A stretch of 64,000 bases of DNA from Pelagovum pacificum (GTDB taxonomy: Bacteria > Pseudomonadota > Alphaproteobacteria > Rhodobacterales > Rhodobacteraceae): assembly GCF_016134045.1 (NCBI RefSeq), contig NZ_CP065915.1, forward strand, positions 1,922,001-1,986,000, given 5' to 3'. This document shows positions 2,959-30,786 of the stretch, in pieces. Position 1 is the stretch's first letter. Each line of letters begins with the position of its first letter. Both the position numbers and the translations under genes were made by a program. The notes beneath the pieces are model-generated. The model saw nothing but the letters and a program-made list of their open reading frames with translations, had not been told where the DNA came from and did not search any database.

Positions 2959-3973
2959 ACATCTCGCGCAGGTCGACCGTGCCGCGCTCGTTCAGGTCGC
3001 TCCAGTGCGCGTCGAGGAACTTCTCCGCCGCCTCGCGCCCCGCCGCCTTGAGACGGGCCAGCACGACCGGGGTCGGCACCATCTTCGTGGCGATGTTGAG
3101 CTCGTTCATCAGCATGTCGTCCGAGATCATGTGGACGAGCACTTCCTTCATCGCCCCCTTCTGCACCGCACCGTCCCCAAGCAGGCGATGGACGAAGGAC
3201 ACCGCCCGAAGCTCCCGCAGTAGCGAGGAGTTGAAGCTGATCTCGTTGATGCGGTTCTGGATCGCCTGCGGATAGGTCGGTACTTCCTCCCGGTAGAGCG
3301 GATTGATGTTCACGATCACCACGTCGTCGGGCAGGTGCCTGGCGTAGAGCGGGAACAGCGCCGGATTGCCGGTGTAGCCGCCGTCCCAGTAAGCCTCGCC
3401 GTCGATCTCGACCGCCTGGAACAGCGTCGGCAGACAGGCGGAGGCAAGCACGGCGTCCGCCGTGATCCCCTCGCCCGAGAAAACCCGGATCTTGCCGCTG
3501 CGCACGTTGGTCGCGCAGATATAGAGCTCCGGCCCGTCGGCCGCGCAGACATGGTCGAAGGCAAGCTCGGACAGGATGTGCCGCAGCGGGTTCTTGAAGA
3601 CGGACCCGTAGACATAGGGCGACATCATCCGCGACGAGATATCGAACGCGGCGAATGCCGGCGAATACTCGATCGCCTTCGCCAACGCCGGCGCGGACGG
3701 CGCGAAGGCGTCGATCCAGGCCGTCAGCCGGTTGTCGGTGACCGCGCCGACCTGAGTCCAGAGCCAGTCGAGACGGGCGCGGGCGCCGTCATTGCCGTCC
3801 TCGACCAGCCCCGCCTTCAACGCTGCGGCATTGAGAGCGCCGGCCGAGGTGCCCGACATCGCGGCGATCTCGACCCGGCCATCCTCGAGCAGCCGGTCGA
3901 GCACACCCCAGGTGAAGGCGCCATGCGCCCCACCACCCTGCAGCGCGAGGTTGATGCGTTTCGGTTCAGCCAC
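2951..3973 (-). CDS. Patatin-like phospholipase
   Basis: 340 residues with a GTG start. The patatin fold elements are present: glycine-rich oxyanion loop GGGAHG at about residues 13-18, nucleophile elbow GTSAG with Ser43, and the DGG motif with the catalytic Asp at about residue 197 (WDGGYTGNP). Such serine lipases act as a Ser-Asp dyad on phospholipids or other acyl esters. No signal peptide, so probably intracellular. The start directly abuts the bdhA stop, giving a bdhA-patatin operon. In PHB-making alphaproteobacteria this pairing is common; a role in lipid or polyhydroxybutyrate turnover is inference only. Confidence 0.85.
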   Translation of the reverse strand: MAEPKRINLALQGGGAHGAFTWGVLDRLLEDGRVEIAAMSGTSAGALNAAALKAGLVEDGNDGARARLDWLWTQVGAVTDNRLTAWIDAFAPSAPALAKAIEYSPAFAAFDISSRMMSPYVYGSVFKNPLRHILSELAFDHVCAADGPELYICATNVRSGKIRVFSGEGITADAVLASACLPTLFQAVEIDGEAYWDGGYTGNPALFPLYARHLPDDVVIVNINPLYREEVPTYPQAIQNRINEISFNSSLLRELRAVSFVHRLLGDGAVQKGAMKEVLVHMISDDMLMNELNIATKMVPTPVVLARLKAAGREAAEKFLDAHWSDLNERGTVDLREMFS

Positions 3974-4747
3974 CTACCGCGCCGTCCAGCCGCCATCCAT
4001 GCTGTGGGTCGTGCCCGTCATCTGCGCAGCATGGTCGGAGCAGAGGAACACCGCCAGCCCGCCGAGCTGCTCGAGCGTGGCGAACTCCTTCGAGGGTTGG
4101 CGATCCAGGATCACCTCGCGGATCGCCGTCTCGCGGTCCATGTCGTACTGCTTCATCGTATCGGGGATCTGGGCCTCGACGAGCGGTGTCATCACGTAGC
4201 CCGGACAGATCGCGTTCGCGGTGATCGGCTCCTCCGCCGTCTCGAGCGCGGTCACCTTGGTAAATCCGACGACCCCGTGCTTGGCCGCGACATAGGCCCC
4301 CTTGTAGGGAGAGGCCCGAAGGCCGTGGGCGGAGGAGATGTTGATCACCCTGCCCCACCCGGCCTTGCGCATCATCGGCAGCGCGGCCGCCGTGGTGTGA
4401 AAGACCGAGGACAGCATGATCGCGATGAGGGCGTCCCACTTCTCGACCGGGAACTCTTCGATCGGGGCGACATGCTGGATGCCGGCGTTGTTGACGAGGA
4501 TGTCGCAGGTGCCCGCCTGTTCGACCAGCGCTCGGGCTTCCTCGCCTCTGGACAGGTCGCCCTTGATGTAGCGCGCGGTGACGCCGAATTCCTTGCCGAC
4601 CTCCTCAGCCAGCGCGTGATCCTCGTCCCGGTCGGTGAAGGAGTTCAGCACGACATTCGCGCCCTCTGCGGCGAGCGCGCGCGCGACGCCGAGCCCGATG
4701 CCGGAGTTCGATCCCGTGACGACGGCGGTTTTCCCCTTGATGGACAT
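3974..4747 (-). CDS. bdhA: 3-hydroxybutyrate dehydrogenase (SDR)
   Basis: 257-residue short-chain dehydrogenase that interconverts D-3-hydroxybutyrate and acetoacetate with NAD. The Rossmann motif TGSNSGIG is at residues 11-18, the NNAG motif follows, and the catalytic Ser-Tyr-Lys set is in SSAHG...YKGAYVAAKHG. The C-terminal part (GYVMTPLVEAQIPD, HSMDGGWTAR) matches 3-hydroxybutyrate dehydrogenases rather than general ketoreductases. It is the first gene of a two-gene minus-strand operon with the patatin phospholipase. The role is use of polyhydroxybutyrate or ketone bodies. The start ATG is preceded by AGAG purines. Confidence 0.93.
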   Translation of the reverse strand: MSIKGKTAVVTGSNSGIGLGVARALAAEGANVVLNSFTDRDEDHALAEEVGKEFGVTARYIKGDLSRGEEARALVEQAGTCDILVNNAGIQHVAPIEEFPVEKWDALIAIMLSSVFHTTAAALPMMRKAGWGRVINISSAHGLRASPYKGAYVAAKHGVVGFTKVTALETAEEPITANAICPGYVMTPLVEAQIPDTMKQYDMDRETAIREVILDRQPSKEFATLEQLGGLAVFLCSDHAAQMTGTTHSMDGGWTAR

Positions 4748-5023
4748 GGCTCTGCTCTCTCCGAGGTCTGGACTGATTGATCACGCCGCCCGGTGGCCGG
4801 CTCTCGAAAGAGATAGTGCTGCGGGTGCGAACTCAGTTCAACCTCCCGCACCGCTCGCGGACTCGGCAAGTGTCCGCCAAGGCGTCGAAAGGCGGATTGC
4901 CGCTACGCGCCTCGCGGGCGATGACGCACGTCTCGCCGCACCGATTCTTCCGATGGATTTGCCGAGGGGATTCGCGCGCGCCGGGCGGAATTGCAGAAGC
5001 ACGCTGCTTACCAATGCATCAAA

Positions 5024-5052
5024 GAAAAAAACGCCCGCACAAGGCGGGCGTT
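5024..5052 (-). terminator. Intrinsic terminator of the small-RNA candidate
   Basis: Minus-strand hairpin: 9-bp perfect stem AACGCCCGC/GCGGGCGTT with 5-nt loop, followed by a run of T (seven, counting the end of the stem) and then C. No minus-strand protein gene ends here, so the terminator implies a non-coding transcript. Confidence 0.8.
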
Positions 5053-5099
5053 AAGTTATTGAGGCAGGTTTCATACAGGCAAGAAACCTATCGAGCAGT
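5024..5099 (-). ncRNA. Candidate trans-acting small RNA, about 76 nt
   Basis: A compact transcription unit without a convincing reading frame. Reading the minus strand, a sigma70-type promoter puts the start at an A (5099). The RNA would form a first hairpin with arms AGGTTTC and GAAACCT (plus 5066-5089), a short A/U-rich linker, and then a perfect intrinsic terminator with stem AACGCCCGC/GCGGGCGTT ending in seven U. It lies in the 466-bp gap between bdhA and the solute-binding protein gene and is divergent to the latter. I do not recognise the family. All elements are seen; that it is a regulatory RNA is inference. Confidence 0.6.
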
Positions 5100-5105
5100 G
5101 CCCCC

Positions 5106-5134
5106 CTTATAAGCAATCTGCCGCGACTGTCCAA
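5106..5134 (-). promoter_or_regulatory. Sigma70-type promoter of the small-RNA candidate
   Basis: On the minus strand: -35 TTGGAC (plus 5129-5134), exactly 17 nt spacer, -10 TATAAG (plus 5106-5111). Seven bases further the expected start is an A at 5099. This is one of the closest matches to the consensus in the window, in a gene-free interval. Confidence 0.6.
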
Positions 5135-5143
5135 GGTAAAAGT

Positions 5144-5172
5144 TTGATAAGGCTGGCGGACGTCTCTACGCT
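5144..5172 (+). promoter_or_regulatory. Possible promoter of the solute-binding protein gene
   Basis: TTGATA at 5144-5149, 17-nt spacer, TACGCT at 5167-5172, about 40 bp before the start codon. Moderate match to the sigma70 consensus; it would be divergent to the small-RNA promoter about 10 bp away. Confidence 0.35.
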
Positions 5173-5213
5173 CATCCTCAAGATCAACAGGGAGCAGAGG
5201 GATTGTCGCTGAA

Positions 5214-7031
5214 ATGAGATCGCAGATTTTCGCCCGAACCGGGCTCGCCGCCATCGCCGTTTCGCTGACACTCGGCGTCACATCCGCCACCGCCGAGCCG
5301 GCCCACGGCATAGCTATGTACGGGGAGCCCGAGCTCCCACCGGATTTTGTGGCGCTCCCCTATGCCAACCCGGACGCACCCGTGGGCGGCCGGATCGTTG
5401 AGGCCAACGTCGGCACGTTCGATTCCCTCAATCCCTACATCCGCAAAGGCAACGTCCCCTGGCAGATCCGCTTCTACATCGGCGAGACGCTGATGGGCCG
5501 GTCGCTGGACGAACCCTTCACGCTCTACGGGCTGCTCGCCGAGTCGATCGAGACCGGACCGAATCGTGAGTGGGTCGAGTTCACGCTGCGCCCGGAGGCG
5601 GAGTTCTCCGATGGCTCACCCGTCACCGTCGAGGACGTGATCTGGTCGTTCGAGACGCTCGGGACCGAGGGCAACCCGCGCTACGCCTCCTTCTGGTCCG
5701 CCGTCGAGAGCCTGGAACAGACCGGCGAGCGCACCGTGCGCTTCACCTTCAACACCGACAACCGCGAGCTTGCGCTTCTGGCCGGTATGCGGCCGATCCT
5801 GAAGAAGGCGCAGTTCGAAGGGCTCGACTTCGCCGAGGAAGGCGACAGCGTCGTGCCGATCGCCTCCTCCCCCTACGTGATCGACGATTACGAGATGGGC
5901 CGCTTCGTCTCGCTGCGCCGCAACCCCGACTACTGGGGCTGGGATGTGCCGTTCCGCGCCGGCAGCTTCAACATCGAAGAATACCGGCTGGAATTCTTCG
6001 GCGATGAGACAGCCGCGTTCGAGGCCTTCAAGGCCGGCGAAGTCACCACGACGCGCGAGTTCAGCGGCGGTCGCTGGCAGACACAGTATGACTTCCCCGC
6101 CATCCAGTCGGGCGAATACGTCAAGGAAGAGATCGCGCACGAACGGCCGTCGGGGATGACCGGCTTCGTGATGAACACCCGCAACCCGCTGTTTCAGGAC
6201 TGGCAGGTGCGCGAGGCGCTCATCACCGTCTTCAACTTCGAGTTCATCAACGACGCGATGACCGGCGGGGCACAGCCGCGCATCACCTCCTACTTCTCCA
6301 ACTCGCCGCTTTCGATGGATCACGGCCCTGCCGAGGGCCGCGTGCTCGAGCTGCTGGAGCAATATTCCGACGACCTCCTGCCCGGCGCCATCGAAGGCTA
6401 CGACCTGCCCGTCTCCGACGGCAGCGAGCGCAACCGCGCCGGCACCGCGCGTGCGCTGGAGCTGTTCGAAGAAGCTGGCTGGACCATCGAGGACGGCGTT
6501 ATGCAGAACGAGGAAGGTGAACCCTTCGAGTTCGATATCCTTCTCGAACAGGGCGGCAGCGAGAATTCCTCGATCATCGACATGTACCTCCAGTCGCTGG
6601 AACGGGTCGGTATCGAGGCGTCCGTCACCACCGTGGACGATGCGCAATATACCGAGCGCACCGACCTCTACGACTTCGACATGACCTACTTCCGCCGGGC
6701 CCTGTCGCTGTCGCCGGGGACGGAGCAGTATCTCTACTGGGGCTCGGAATATGTCGACGAGGAAGCGGGCCGGAACCTGATGGGTGTCAGCTCGCCCGCC
6801 GTCGATGGCCTCGTGGATACGCTGCTGACCGCCACCGACAGCGAGGATTTCTATGCCGCTGCCAAGGCGCTGGACCGGGTGCTGACGACGGGCCGCTACG
6901 TGATCCCGATCTACCAGTGGAACGTCTCGTGGCTGGCCCATGACGCCGCGTTGAAGCACCCCGAGACGATCCCGATCATGGGCGACACGACGAACTGGCT
7001 CCCCGACTACTGGTGGTACGAGGAGGACTGA
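5214..7031 (+). CDS. ABC transporter substrate-binding protein, family 5 (peptide/oligopeptide type)
   Basis: 605-residue periplasmic binding protein. A Sec signal peptide is clear: basic MRSQIFAR, a hydrophobic stretch, then a cleavage site about SATA-EP near residue 27. The rest is the SBP_bac_5 fold, with the family's DGSPVTVEDVIWSF and DYWGWDVPF-type segments. The Ala-His-Gly-Ile-Ala-Met-Tyr-Gly mature start resembles the YejA/microcin-C-like branch of oligopeptide binders. No permease or ATPase genes adjoin it, so it must work with components encoded elsewhere or outside its present operon. Ligand unknown. Strong terminator follows at 7055. Confidence 0.88.
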   Translation: MRSQIFARTGLAAIAVSLTLGVTSATAEPAHGIAMYGEPELPPDFVALPYANPDAPVGGRIVEANVGTFDSLNPYIRKGNVPWQIRFYIGETLMGRSLDEPFTLYGLLAESIETGPNREWVEFTLRPEAEFSDGSPVTVEDVIWSFETLGTEGNPRYASFWSAVESLEQTGERTVRFTFNTDNRELALLAGMRPILKKAQFEGLDFAEEGDSVVPIASSPYVIDDYEMGRFVSLRRNPDYWGWDVPFRAGSFNIEEYRLEFFGDETAAFEAFKAGEVTTTREFSGGRWQTQYDFPAIQSGEYVKEEIAHERPSGMTGFVMNTRNPLFQDWQVREALITVFNFEFINDAMTGGAQPRITSYFSNSPLSMDHGPAEGRVLELLEQYSDDLLPGAIEGYDLPVSDGSERNRAGTARALELFEEAGWTIEDGVMQNEEGEPFEFDILLEQGGSENSSIIDMYLQSLERVGIEASVTTVDDAQYTERTDLYDFDMTYFRRALSLSPGTEQYLYWGSEYVDEEAGRNLMGVSSPAVDGLVDTLLTATDSEDFYAAAKALDRVLTTGRYVIPIYQWNVSWLAHDAALKHPETIPIMGDTTNWLPDYWWYEED

Positions 7032-7054
7032 TCCTCCCGCCCCTAGCACGATCG

Positions 7055-7089
7055 CGGCCCGCCTCCGACAAGGAGGCGGGCCGTTTCAA
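7055..7089 (+). terminator. Intrinsic terminator after the solute-binding protein gene
   Basis: 12-bp perfect stem CGGCCCGCCTCC (7055-7066) / GGAGGCGGGCCG (7072-7083), 5-nt loop, then TTTCAATT. It separates the binding-protein gene from the following small genes. Confidence 0.85.
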
Positions 7090-7181
7090 TTGCAGCGATC
7101 GAGCGTCCGGTGAATTAACCGCCCCTTAAGGTCTGTGTGCTGGCATGTCCCCTGACAACGCGCAGCAGCGGAGGGGTTCTC

Positions 7182-7415
7182 ATGTCCTGGACATCAGTCA
7201 CGGCGGAGTGGCAGGTCTTCATACGCGCTTTCTGCGCCGCCTTCCCCCACCTCGACGGCGAGGCGCTCCGCCGCTTTCGCGGCGACCGTGCGAAGCTCGT
7301 AACCTATCTCTCCGAAGCTCACGACCTGACCGAGGCGGAGGCGTGCGAGACGCTGACCGACTGGTTCGACCTGAACGGGCCGCGGATTCTCGCCGAACTT
7401 GCCCGTGCGGCCTAG
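7182..7415 (+). CDS. Small CsbD-like protein, copy 1 of 3
   Basis: 77 residues from ATG 7182, chosen because GGAGGGG lies 5-10 nt upstream; the longer in-frame extension has no such site. I see no signal peptide or membrane segment. The sequence pattern EW..F, then GDR..LV..LSE, then EA....L.DW aligns without gaps to the second half of CsbD/YjbJ stress proteins (G-R-x-x-LV...A...V-DW). Classical CsbD proteins are small, acidic, helical and induced by stress. Two further diverged copies follow. CsbD kinship is my inference from the spacing of conserved residues. Confidence 0.6.
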   Translation: MSWTSVTAEWQVFIRAFCAAFPHLDGEALRRFRGDRAKLVTYLSEAHDLTEAEACETLTDWFDLNGPRILAELARAA

Positions 7416-7468
7416 GAACCGGGACTCCGCGCGGGTGTTGGTCTTGCGAATGAACGGAGGACTACAAC

Positions 7469-7816
7469 ATGGAATGGCGTGAGGTTTCGTCGAACTGGAC
7501 CGCTTTCGTCCCCAGCGTGCTGACCCGCTGGCCCGCGATCGAAGAAGAAGAGGCGCTGGATGTCGATGGTGACCGTGCGCGTCTGACCACGCTGGTCGCG
7601 AACCGCATGGCGATGAGCCAGGCAGTTGCCGACGGCGAAGTCACCGACTGGCTGATGGGCATGGCCCCGGCCGATACGATGATGGACGAAAGCCTGGACA
7701 ATGCCCGGATCAGCGCATCCGCGGCGGACATTCCTCCGGGCGAGGACGTCTATTCCGAAGACGCCGAGTTCGGCGACGACAATGAAGCTGACCCGCCGGT
7801 GGGACGCACCGGTTGA
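7469..7816 (+). CDS. Small CsbD-like protein, copy 2 of 3, with acidic tail
   Basis: 115 residues, ATG with GGAGG 7 nt upstream. The first 65 residues repeat the pattern of the preceding gene (MEW.....NW..F......W........DGDRARL...VA.RM.......VTDW), and a very acidic tail of about 45 residues (runs of Asp/Glu) is added. No cysteine, signal peptide or membrane segment. 53 bp after copy 1 and overlapping the nominal upstream extension of copy 3, so the three probably form one operon. Function unknown; CsbD-like stress role is only suggested by residue spacing. Confidence 0.55.
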   Translation: MEWREVSSNWTAFVPSVLTRWPAIEEEEALDVDGDRARLTTLVANRMAMSQAVADGEVTDWLMGMAPADTMMDESLDNARISASAADIPPGEDVYSEDAEFGDDNEADPPVGRTG

Positions 7817-7857
7817 CCGAAGCCGCCGCACGCGGCGCAGAGGCAAAGGAGCAAGAC

Positions 7858-8076
7858 ATGAACTGGCAGGACATTACCCGTAATCCCGATCCCGTTGTCG
7901 AAGAGCTGCGGCAGCACTTCCCGGCGACAGATCCGGACGAAGTCCTCAAGACGGACAAAGAGCGCGCGGTTGAGAAGCTGGCCCGCGCCAATGATCTGAC
8001 GCGCCGCGAGGCGCAGGTGGAACTGGACGACCTGATGTTCGCCACCGACCTTCGCCGCTATCGCCGCAAGGCGTGA
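7858..8076 (+). CDS. Small CsbD-like protein, copy 3 of 3
   Basis: 72 residues starting at ATG 7858, supported by AAAGGAG 6-11 nt upstream and by the shared MxW start of the other two copies. An upstream TTG at 7813 would overlap the previous gene and is unlikely. It keeps the framework (NWQDIT, FP..D.DEVL, KERAVEKLA, NDLTRREA..ELDDL) but has lost the second Trp. Ends in a basic RRYRRKA. Last gene of the trio, followed by a bidirectional terminator. Function unknown. Confidence 0.55.
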   Translation: MNWQDITRNPDPVVEELRQHFPATDPDEVLKTDKERAVEKLARANDLTRREAQVELDDLMFATDLRRYRRKA

Positions 8077-30700: not shown

Positions 30701-30786
30701 TGGTACCGGTGGTCGGACTCGAACCGACATGACCTTGCGGTCGGGGGATTTTGAATCCCCTGCGTCTACCATTCCGCCACACCGGC
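30701..30786 (-). tRNA. tRNA-Leu, anticodon CAA
   Basis: 86 nt including an encoded CCA. Acceptor arms GCCGGTG and CACCGGT pair with a terminal G-U. Anticodon stem GGGGA/TCCCC encloses loop TTCAAAA, giving CAA, which reads UUG. The long variable arm (around GACCGCAAGGTC) marks a class II tRNA, and the T-arm GTTCGAGTC is intact. Confidence 0.95.

Follow-up and report, generated by a model that had tools for sequence, protein, structure and literature searches.

A single-copy small RNA, apparently universal in Rhodobacteraceae, with conserved complementarity to the mraZ/dcw leader

The minus strand of the window, by which we mean the whole 64,000-nt stretch of Pelagovum pacificum DNA that was analyzed, carries a predicted small RNA (sRNA) gene that is single-copy and apparently universal in Rhodobacteraceae. 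Comparison across genomes makes it quite likely that the gene encodes a stand-alone, trans-acting, family-wide sRNA that pairs with one site (site 1) in the mraZ/dcw leader, and the sRNA probably links growth conditions to cell division. The relevant features, in window coordinates, are:

5214..7031, plus strand, ABC transporter substrate-binding protein gene (Pfam SBP_bac_5), divergent neighbour
5131..5147, minus strand, conserved upstream box TCAAACTTTTACCTTGG, overlapping the -35 element
5129..5134, minus strand, -35 element TTGGAC, read in the sequence
5106..5111, minus strand, -10 element TATAAG, read in the sequence
5024..5099, minus strand, sRNA gene of 69-76 nt depending on the 3' end, with its presumed 5' end at A5099
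5060..5099, minus strand, near-invariant 40-nt core ACTGCTCGATAGGTTTCTTGCCTGTATGAAACCTGCCTCA
5092..5098, minus strand, CTGCTCG in the 5' part of the RNA, which complements CGAGCAG in the mraZ leader (site 2, no more than suggestive)
5066..5089, minus strand, hairpin I with loop TTGCCTGTAT and arms AGGTTTC (5089-5083) and GAAACCT (5072-5066)
5064..5082, minus strand, main seed TTGCCTGTATGAAACCTGC, which complements site 1 in the mraZ leader
5024..5052, minus strand, intrinsic terminator, with a hairpin of nine pairs (5052-5030) and a T run
3974..4747, minus strand, 3-hydroxybutyrate dehydrogenase gene (TIGR01963, above cut-off), co-oriented and downstream

A sequence-only reading of this DNA had described a promoter, its spacer, a start at the A of position 5099, the hairpin arms and a terminator, and each lies on the minus strand where it was placed, with 17 nt between the -35 and -10 elements. 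Taken by themselves, these promoter and terminator signals are weak, single-sequence evidence. A sigma-70 scan of positions 3000-8000 found no promoter, and the two terminator-like sites in that interval, which overlap and both lie at the sRNA, are not above the chance expectation of 2.3. The predicted fold of the 76-nt RNA has an energy of -25.0 kcal/mol (z = -4.97 relative to 200 shuffles), and 68 nt precede a run of seven T both in the window's sRNA and in C. flavus, giving a possible length of 69-75 nt. A small ORF inside the RNA, MKPASIT, was considered and rejected, its frame and stop being lost in relatives in an alignment judged by eye. It is conservation across the family that sets the sRNA gene beyond chance, despite the weak single-sequence signals.

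A 141-bp query matched all 37 family genomes, the window's own included, as well as 2 of 24 genomes of other families, the latter over 22-27 nt of the terminator part. A covariance model (R1), built from 62 sequences and scoring 105.8 bits on the window's locus, served for the search of Rhodobacterales that the sequence-only reading had proposed. It matched every one of the 390 order-sample genomes (139 genera, each genome labelled Rhodobacteraceae and each at least 99% complete by table), once per genome and with E of 1e-5 or better. In a class sample of 385 genomes, the five family genomes all scored 104-108 bits and 30 of 380 non-family genomes gave matches of at most 32.4 bits, where R1 searches over more than 40 genomes (the order and class samples) use stricter filters and may lose weak matches; 25 of those 30 non-family loci were inspected and share at most 23 of the 40 core positions. 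No exact core match was found in viral contigs, searched as a check for phage carriage. No Rfam 15 family was matched by the sRNA at its gathering score; a permissive search reached 27.9 bits at best versus a cut-off of 50, and Leu_leader, Trp_leader and Hrs13 show a weak, terminator-type likeness below their cut-offs. The only tRNA in the window, and its only Rfam match at gathering score, is a tRNA-Leu (caa) at 30701-30786.

Within the RNA, the core shows a single substitution across 62 aligned distinct sequences (alignment A1, which took in 62 of 121 distinct RNA sequences), and it is intact in 29 of 30 loci chosen independently of the core pattern (L001-L030). Loci L031-L148 are exact 27-nt core matches, among the matches listed, and core identity there is by construction; the letters outside the 27 nt, loci L001-L030 and the model searches are independent of that selection. 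Some loci repeat one genome (L008 and L052). The pairs of hairpin I do not vary in the 62 sequences. Compensatory changes in related genomes, whose absence the earlier reading had named as part of a refutation, are found in the terminator stem, where seven of eight consensus pairs show two-sided changes.

The promoter region was usable in 141 of 148 loci, 140 of them distinct. Among the matches listed, TTGG is retained at -35 in 134 of these 140 and TATA at -10 in 131; TTG and TATA separated by 19-22 nt are retained in 130, the 17-nt spacer in 115, CAAACTT of the upstream box in 116, and a T run in all 140. At no more than one mismatch, an extended form of the box occurs in 15 of 23 family genomes, one copy each and always at the sRNA gene, and was not found in the other eight. 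The box thus marks no visible regulon, and we rejected its reading as a shared-regulon motif because at this threshold it marks the sRNA gene only in the family genomes. The TTG and TAT elements are spaced as in the RpoHI/RpoHII promoter logos described in PMC3441632, although identical hexamers also fit sigma-70 and the T at -9 favoured by RpoHI is mostly A in the sRNA promoter. Three loci (L049, L068 and L115) combine an intact RNA core with a promoter box that is altered or unrecognisable.

The surroundings of the gene are conserved as well, and they bear on two local explanations of the RNA. To the earlier statement that no minus-strand gene uses the terminator it should be added that a co-oriented 3-hydroxybutyrate dehydrogenase gene starts ~277 bp beyond it. 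This gene lies downstream in 116 of 148 loci, among the matches listed, which would suit a leader or attenuator of the dehydrogenase; at seven loci, however, the next gene after the core, 75-299 bp away, runs on the opposite strand (L012, L044, L055, L081, L098, L125 and L136, in a context search that covered eight gene types). The divergent substrate-binding protein gene, whose mRNA the sequence-only reading had proposed as the target, flanks the RNA in 136 of 148 loci, again among the matches listed, but its pairing with the sRNA is about as strong as that of shuffled sequences: across 132 loci among the matches listed, the median duplex energy at the start of the gene was -25.0 versus -24.3 for shuffles, and 8% of the starts fell within the lowest 5% of shuffles. 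Moreover, the RNA is present at L038, L056 and L068, where no binding-protein gene was found beside it. When eight neighbouring gene types were tested as targets, between 0 and 9% of loci fell within the lowest 5% of shuffles, and no type stood out as clearly enriched. Synteny counts are lowered by locus ends, and ORF-based context calling, noisy in GC-rich DNA, was excluded from the results.

Given that the neighbours vary in this way, with the next gene on the opposite strand at some loci and no binding-protein gene found at others, a leader of the dehydrogenase gene is extremely unlikely and a private regulator of the binding-protein mRNA very unlikely; the adjacent binding-protein gene is probably not a target of the sRNA. 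The earlier view of a stand-alone sRNA, by comparison, is supported by conservation, single copy, terminator covariation and the opposite-strand next gene at some loci. In three Paracoccus species (four records, including L207 and L208), the sRNA lies on a second replicon of 1.46-2.24 Mb that is listed as a plasmid, and in Paracoccus ferrooxidans both usual neighbours are annotated by name beside it on a 1.46-Mb second replicon.

We searched the window's own genome for complements of the unpaired stretches of the sRNA and obtained one long match, GCAGGTTTCATACAGGCAA, a 19-nt perfect complement at G000:C1:1217585-1217603 (site 1). It lies ~0.7 Mb from the sRNA gene, upstream of mraZ (Pfam MraZ, 63.7 bits versus a cut-off of 23; the NCBIfam equivalog cut-offs were not reached) and rsmH (above cut-off in both TIGR00006 and Pfam); with these two genes downstream, the leader is identified as the dcw leader. 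MraZ was found in 61 of 61 order-sample genomes, and in the 61 leaders, all of which were read, site 1 is located 178-254 nt upstream of the inferred mraZ start. Ten leaders match the 18-nt complement at all 18 positions, 26 at 17, 13 at 16 and 12 at 11-15, so that 49 of 61 family leaders reach at least 16 of 18, whereas shuffled leaders (n = 1,220) reach 14 at most. The longest uninterrupted complement spans 16-19 nt in 38 leaders, at least 12 nt in 56 and 9-11 nt in 5, compared with 5-11 nt when each leader was shuffled once. The CAGGC of site 1, which faces the loop of hairpin I, is identical in all 61. Three further family genomes (C. flavus, Rhodobacter sp. TJ_12 and Haematobacter) all have 14-17 contiguous nt of site 1. 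Among 24 genomes of other families, 19 have mraZ, and the site is absent from all 19 (at most 12 of 18, up to 1,500 nt upstream).

When the window's sRNA was cofolded with each leader, the median gain was -20.1 kcal/mol versus -7.8 with site 1 shuffled, and the native site was better in all 52 usable leaders; the other nine of the 61 were dropped from this comparison and from the T-run distances below since a simple T-run pattern did not fit them. At the level of sequence, the conserved complementarity of the sRNA is to the mraZ/dcw leader. The invariance of the sRNA core means that compensatory sRNA-leader changes cannot show. In 57 of 61 leaders a second motif, CGAGCAG (site 2), lies in antiparallel order, 31-43 nt beyond site 1 on its 3' side. 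The own genome, one of the four without it there, has a 10-nt complement in the terminator arm instead. As a second pairing site this is suggestive only, because it is a single 7-nt motif inherited by all.

Complementarity and DNA identity are indistinguishable by sequence alone, and the common sequence might be a DNA-binding site present at both places rather than an RNA pairing site. We consider this very improbable: both copies appear to lie within transcribed RNA (for the leader copy, by extrapolation) on strands that give complementary RNAs, and the sRNA copy forms a hairpin between a conserved promoter and a conserved terminator. The loop complement TACAGGCAA is rare in the own genome, with 6 occurrences including the sRNA gene versus 20 for a reversed control.

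The leader that carries site 1 is itself a source of sRNA. According to PMC5089854, the 268-nt dcw leader of Rhodobacter sphaeroides yields the 206-nt sRNA UpsM by partial termination, RNase E produces a 130-nt UpsM fragment, and the long dcw leader is exclusive to Rhodobacteraceae, as is the sRNA described here in the samples searched. UpsM differs from the latter in role, being the predicted target RNA, made from the mraZ leader. A further R. sphaeroides RNA, StsR (formerly RSs0827), is described in PMC8307010 and PMC8625941 as a 72-nt orphan sRNA under RpoHI/RpoHII control; it is reported to pair with both UpsM and the dcw 5' UTR, alter their structure, open an RNase E site, trigger UpsM cleavage and affect dcw read-through. 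Hfq binding and induction in stationary phase are further attributes of StsR. In 52 leaders, the start of site 1 lies a median of 153 nt (range, 144-170) before the end of the leader T run, and in C. flavus it lies 153 nt before it. Provided that UpsM has the same ends as in R. sphaeroides, site 1 would correspond to about nt 54-71 of UpsM, and the cut leaving the 130-nt fragment would fall ~5 nt 3' of site 1, in coordinates extrapolated from C. flavus and relatives. A cut next to site 1 would fit an StsR-like action there. Some 30-60 nt beyond site 1, on its 3' side, leaders L252-L312 also have in common a strongly conserved stretch similar to GCGAGCAGACATCCCCCCAGGTGG. It seems to lie in a hairpin loop, and its run of C resembles a seed by which UpsM itself would be directed to a ribosome-binding site.

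We propose that the loop of hairpin I (TTGCCTGTAT) would be the first part of the sRNA to touch site 1 in the mraZ leader, after which hairpin I would open and up to 19 pairs could form, while the 5' end of the sRNA may clamp the second leader site. By analogy with the published R. sphaeroides work, pairing would remodel the leader beside the RNase E site, and the resulting cuts in UpsM and the dcw mRNA would restrain division under stress or in stationary phase.

The direction of this control could also be the reverse, with the abundant leader RNA acting as the regulator that sponges the sRNA, whose real targets would be other mRNAs. UpsM is reported to be the most abundant sRNA and to make up ~60% of Hfq-bound sRNA (PMC5089854), which would suit a sponge. 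Pairing with the leader itself, however, accounts for most of the core, and StsR is reported to trigger UpsM cleavage (PMC8307010 and PMC8625941); we regard a sponge as quite unlikely. Our search for other targets covered three short patterns, and within this narrow search of the own genome TGAGGCAGG and TATCGAGCAG, used as seed patterns, led to no convincing target at a start codon.

With regulation by the sRNA as the preferred reading, the question becomes its relation to StsR, which we compared by its published descriptions, the R. sphaeroides stsR sequence being outside the comparison. Like StsR, the window's sRNA is an orphan gene with its own promoter and an intrinsic terminator, its possible length of 69-75 nt takes in the 72 nt of StsR, and the two have a common predicted partner in UpsM and the dcw 5' UTR, with which pairing of the window's sRNA was found in silico. 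These likenesses suggest that the sRNA works like StsR and is probably its ortholog. We withhold the name because the printed StsR probe mismatches this RNA: the Northern oligo GGACAGTGAAGGTAGAACGG, as given in PMC11354728, is not complementary to the window's sRNA, its reverse complement matches at most 11 of 20 positions in the sRNA regions of four relatives, and its target, at up to three mismatches, was not found in C. flavus or in 29 of 30 relatives searched.

A misprinted probe in PMC11354728 is possible. Before mraZ, the reverse complement of the oligo reaches 12 of 20 at best among the 61 leaders, and in the C. flavus mraZ region it is the reverse complement that matches better (14 of 20 versus 11 of 20), a result that weakens the misprint idea and thereby makes StsR orthology slightly less probable. 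The oligo itself reaches 15 of 20 in 2 of 61 leaders, a weak likeness to the sense strand immediately upstream of mraZ. Another published StsR target, rpoE, with pairing near its start codon, finds no support across relatives. At the rpoE starts of 29 species other than R. sphaeroides, the median was -25.0 versus -27.4 for shuffles, and 3 of 29 start regions were at or below 5% of their own shuffles, without enrichment. A thirtieth rpoE locus lacked a start and was left out, and ChrR gave no match in C. flavus.

These results allow the alternative that the sRNA is a second UpsM/dcw-directed RNA distinct from StsR, so that R. sphaeroides would have two RNAs acting on one leader. The mismatched probe, the failure to find its target in C. 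flavus, which has the RNA, and the lack of conserved rpoE pairing favour this alternative, but the compatible length, orphan status, RpoH-compatible promoter and common partner speak for StsR, and the oligo in print is perhaps not the StsR probe, a mix-up that is unproven. We judge a second RNA rather unlikely. A stronger version, in which the sRNA is the older and universal dcw-leader sRNA with a near-invariant 40-nt two-seed core and StsR is a later, local addition, we consider unlikely.

No account of this sequence or its conservation was found in the open full-text literature, a scope outside which the main StsR paper (10.1093/nar/gkab491) lies, and the sole match to sequence fragments searched in paper texts was an unrelated insect paper.

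If the sRNA is StsR, a mechanism described in one species would become a family-wide rule by which division is coupled to the state of growth; otherwise there is a second layer, and were it the older of two RNAs, sRNA-to-sRNA control of division would be a family-wide housekeeping circuit. To our knowledge, it is uncommon for a bacterial sRNA to be single-copy, syntenic and almost unchanged over 40 nt throughout a family, and rarer still for one to have a conserved pairing site explaining the constraint. The sites are open to matched mutations in R. sphaeroides 2.4.1, Ruegeria pomeroyi DSS-3 or P. denitrificans.

Other sRNAs reported from the family were also compared. Neither the Paracoccus Intergenic 60 nor the Ruegeria trans-sRNA list offered a sequence or position identifying it with this sRNA, and both were set aside. 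For the Paracoccus denitrificans RNA 'Intergenic 134', identity with this sRNA is an unproven lead only. PMC5107571 gives it as 84 nt long and conserved in Rhodobacteraceae, like the window's sRNA, and reports hits in Actinobacteria that, compared by description, do not fit. From two rising series in Table 1 of that paper we infer that 'Intergenic 134' lies on chromosome 2, and in three related Paracoccus species it is likewise a second replicon that carries the sRNA described here.
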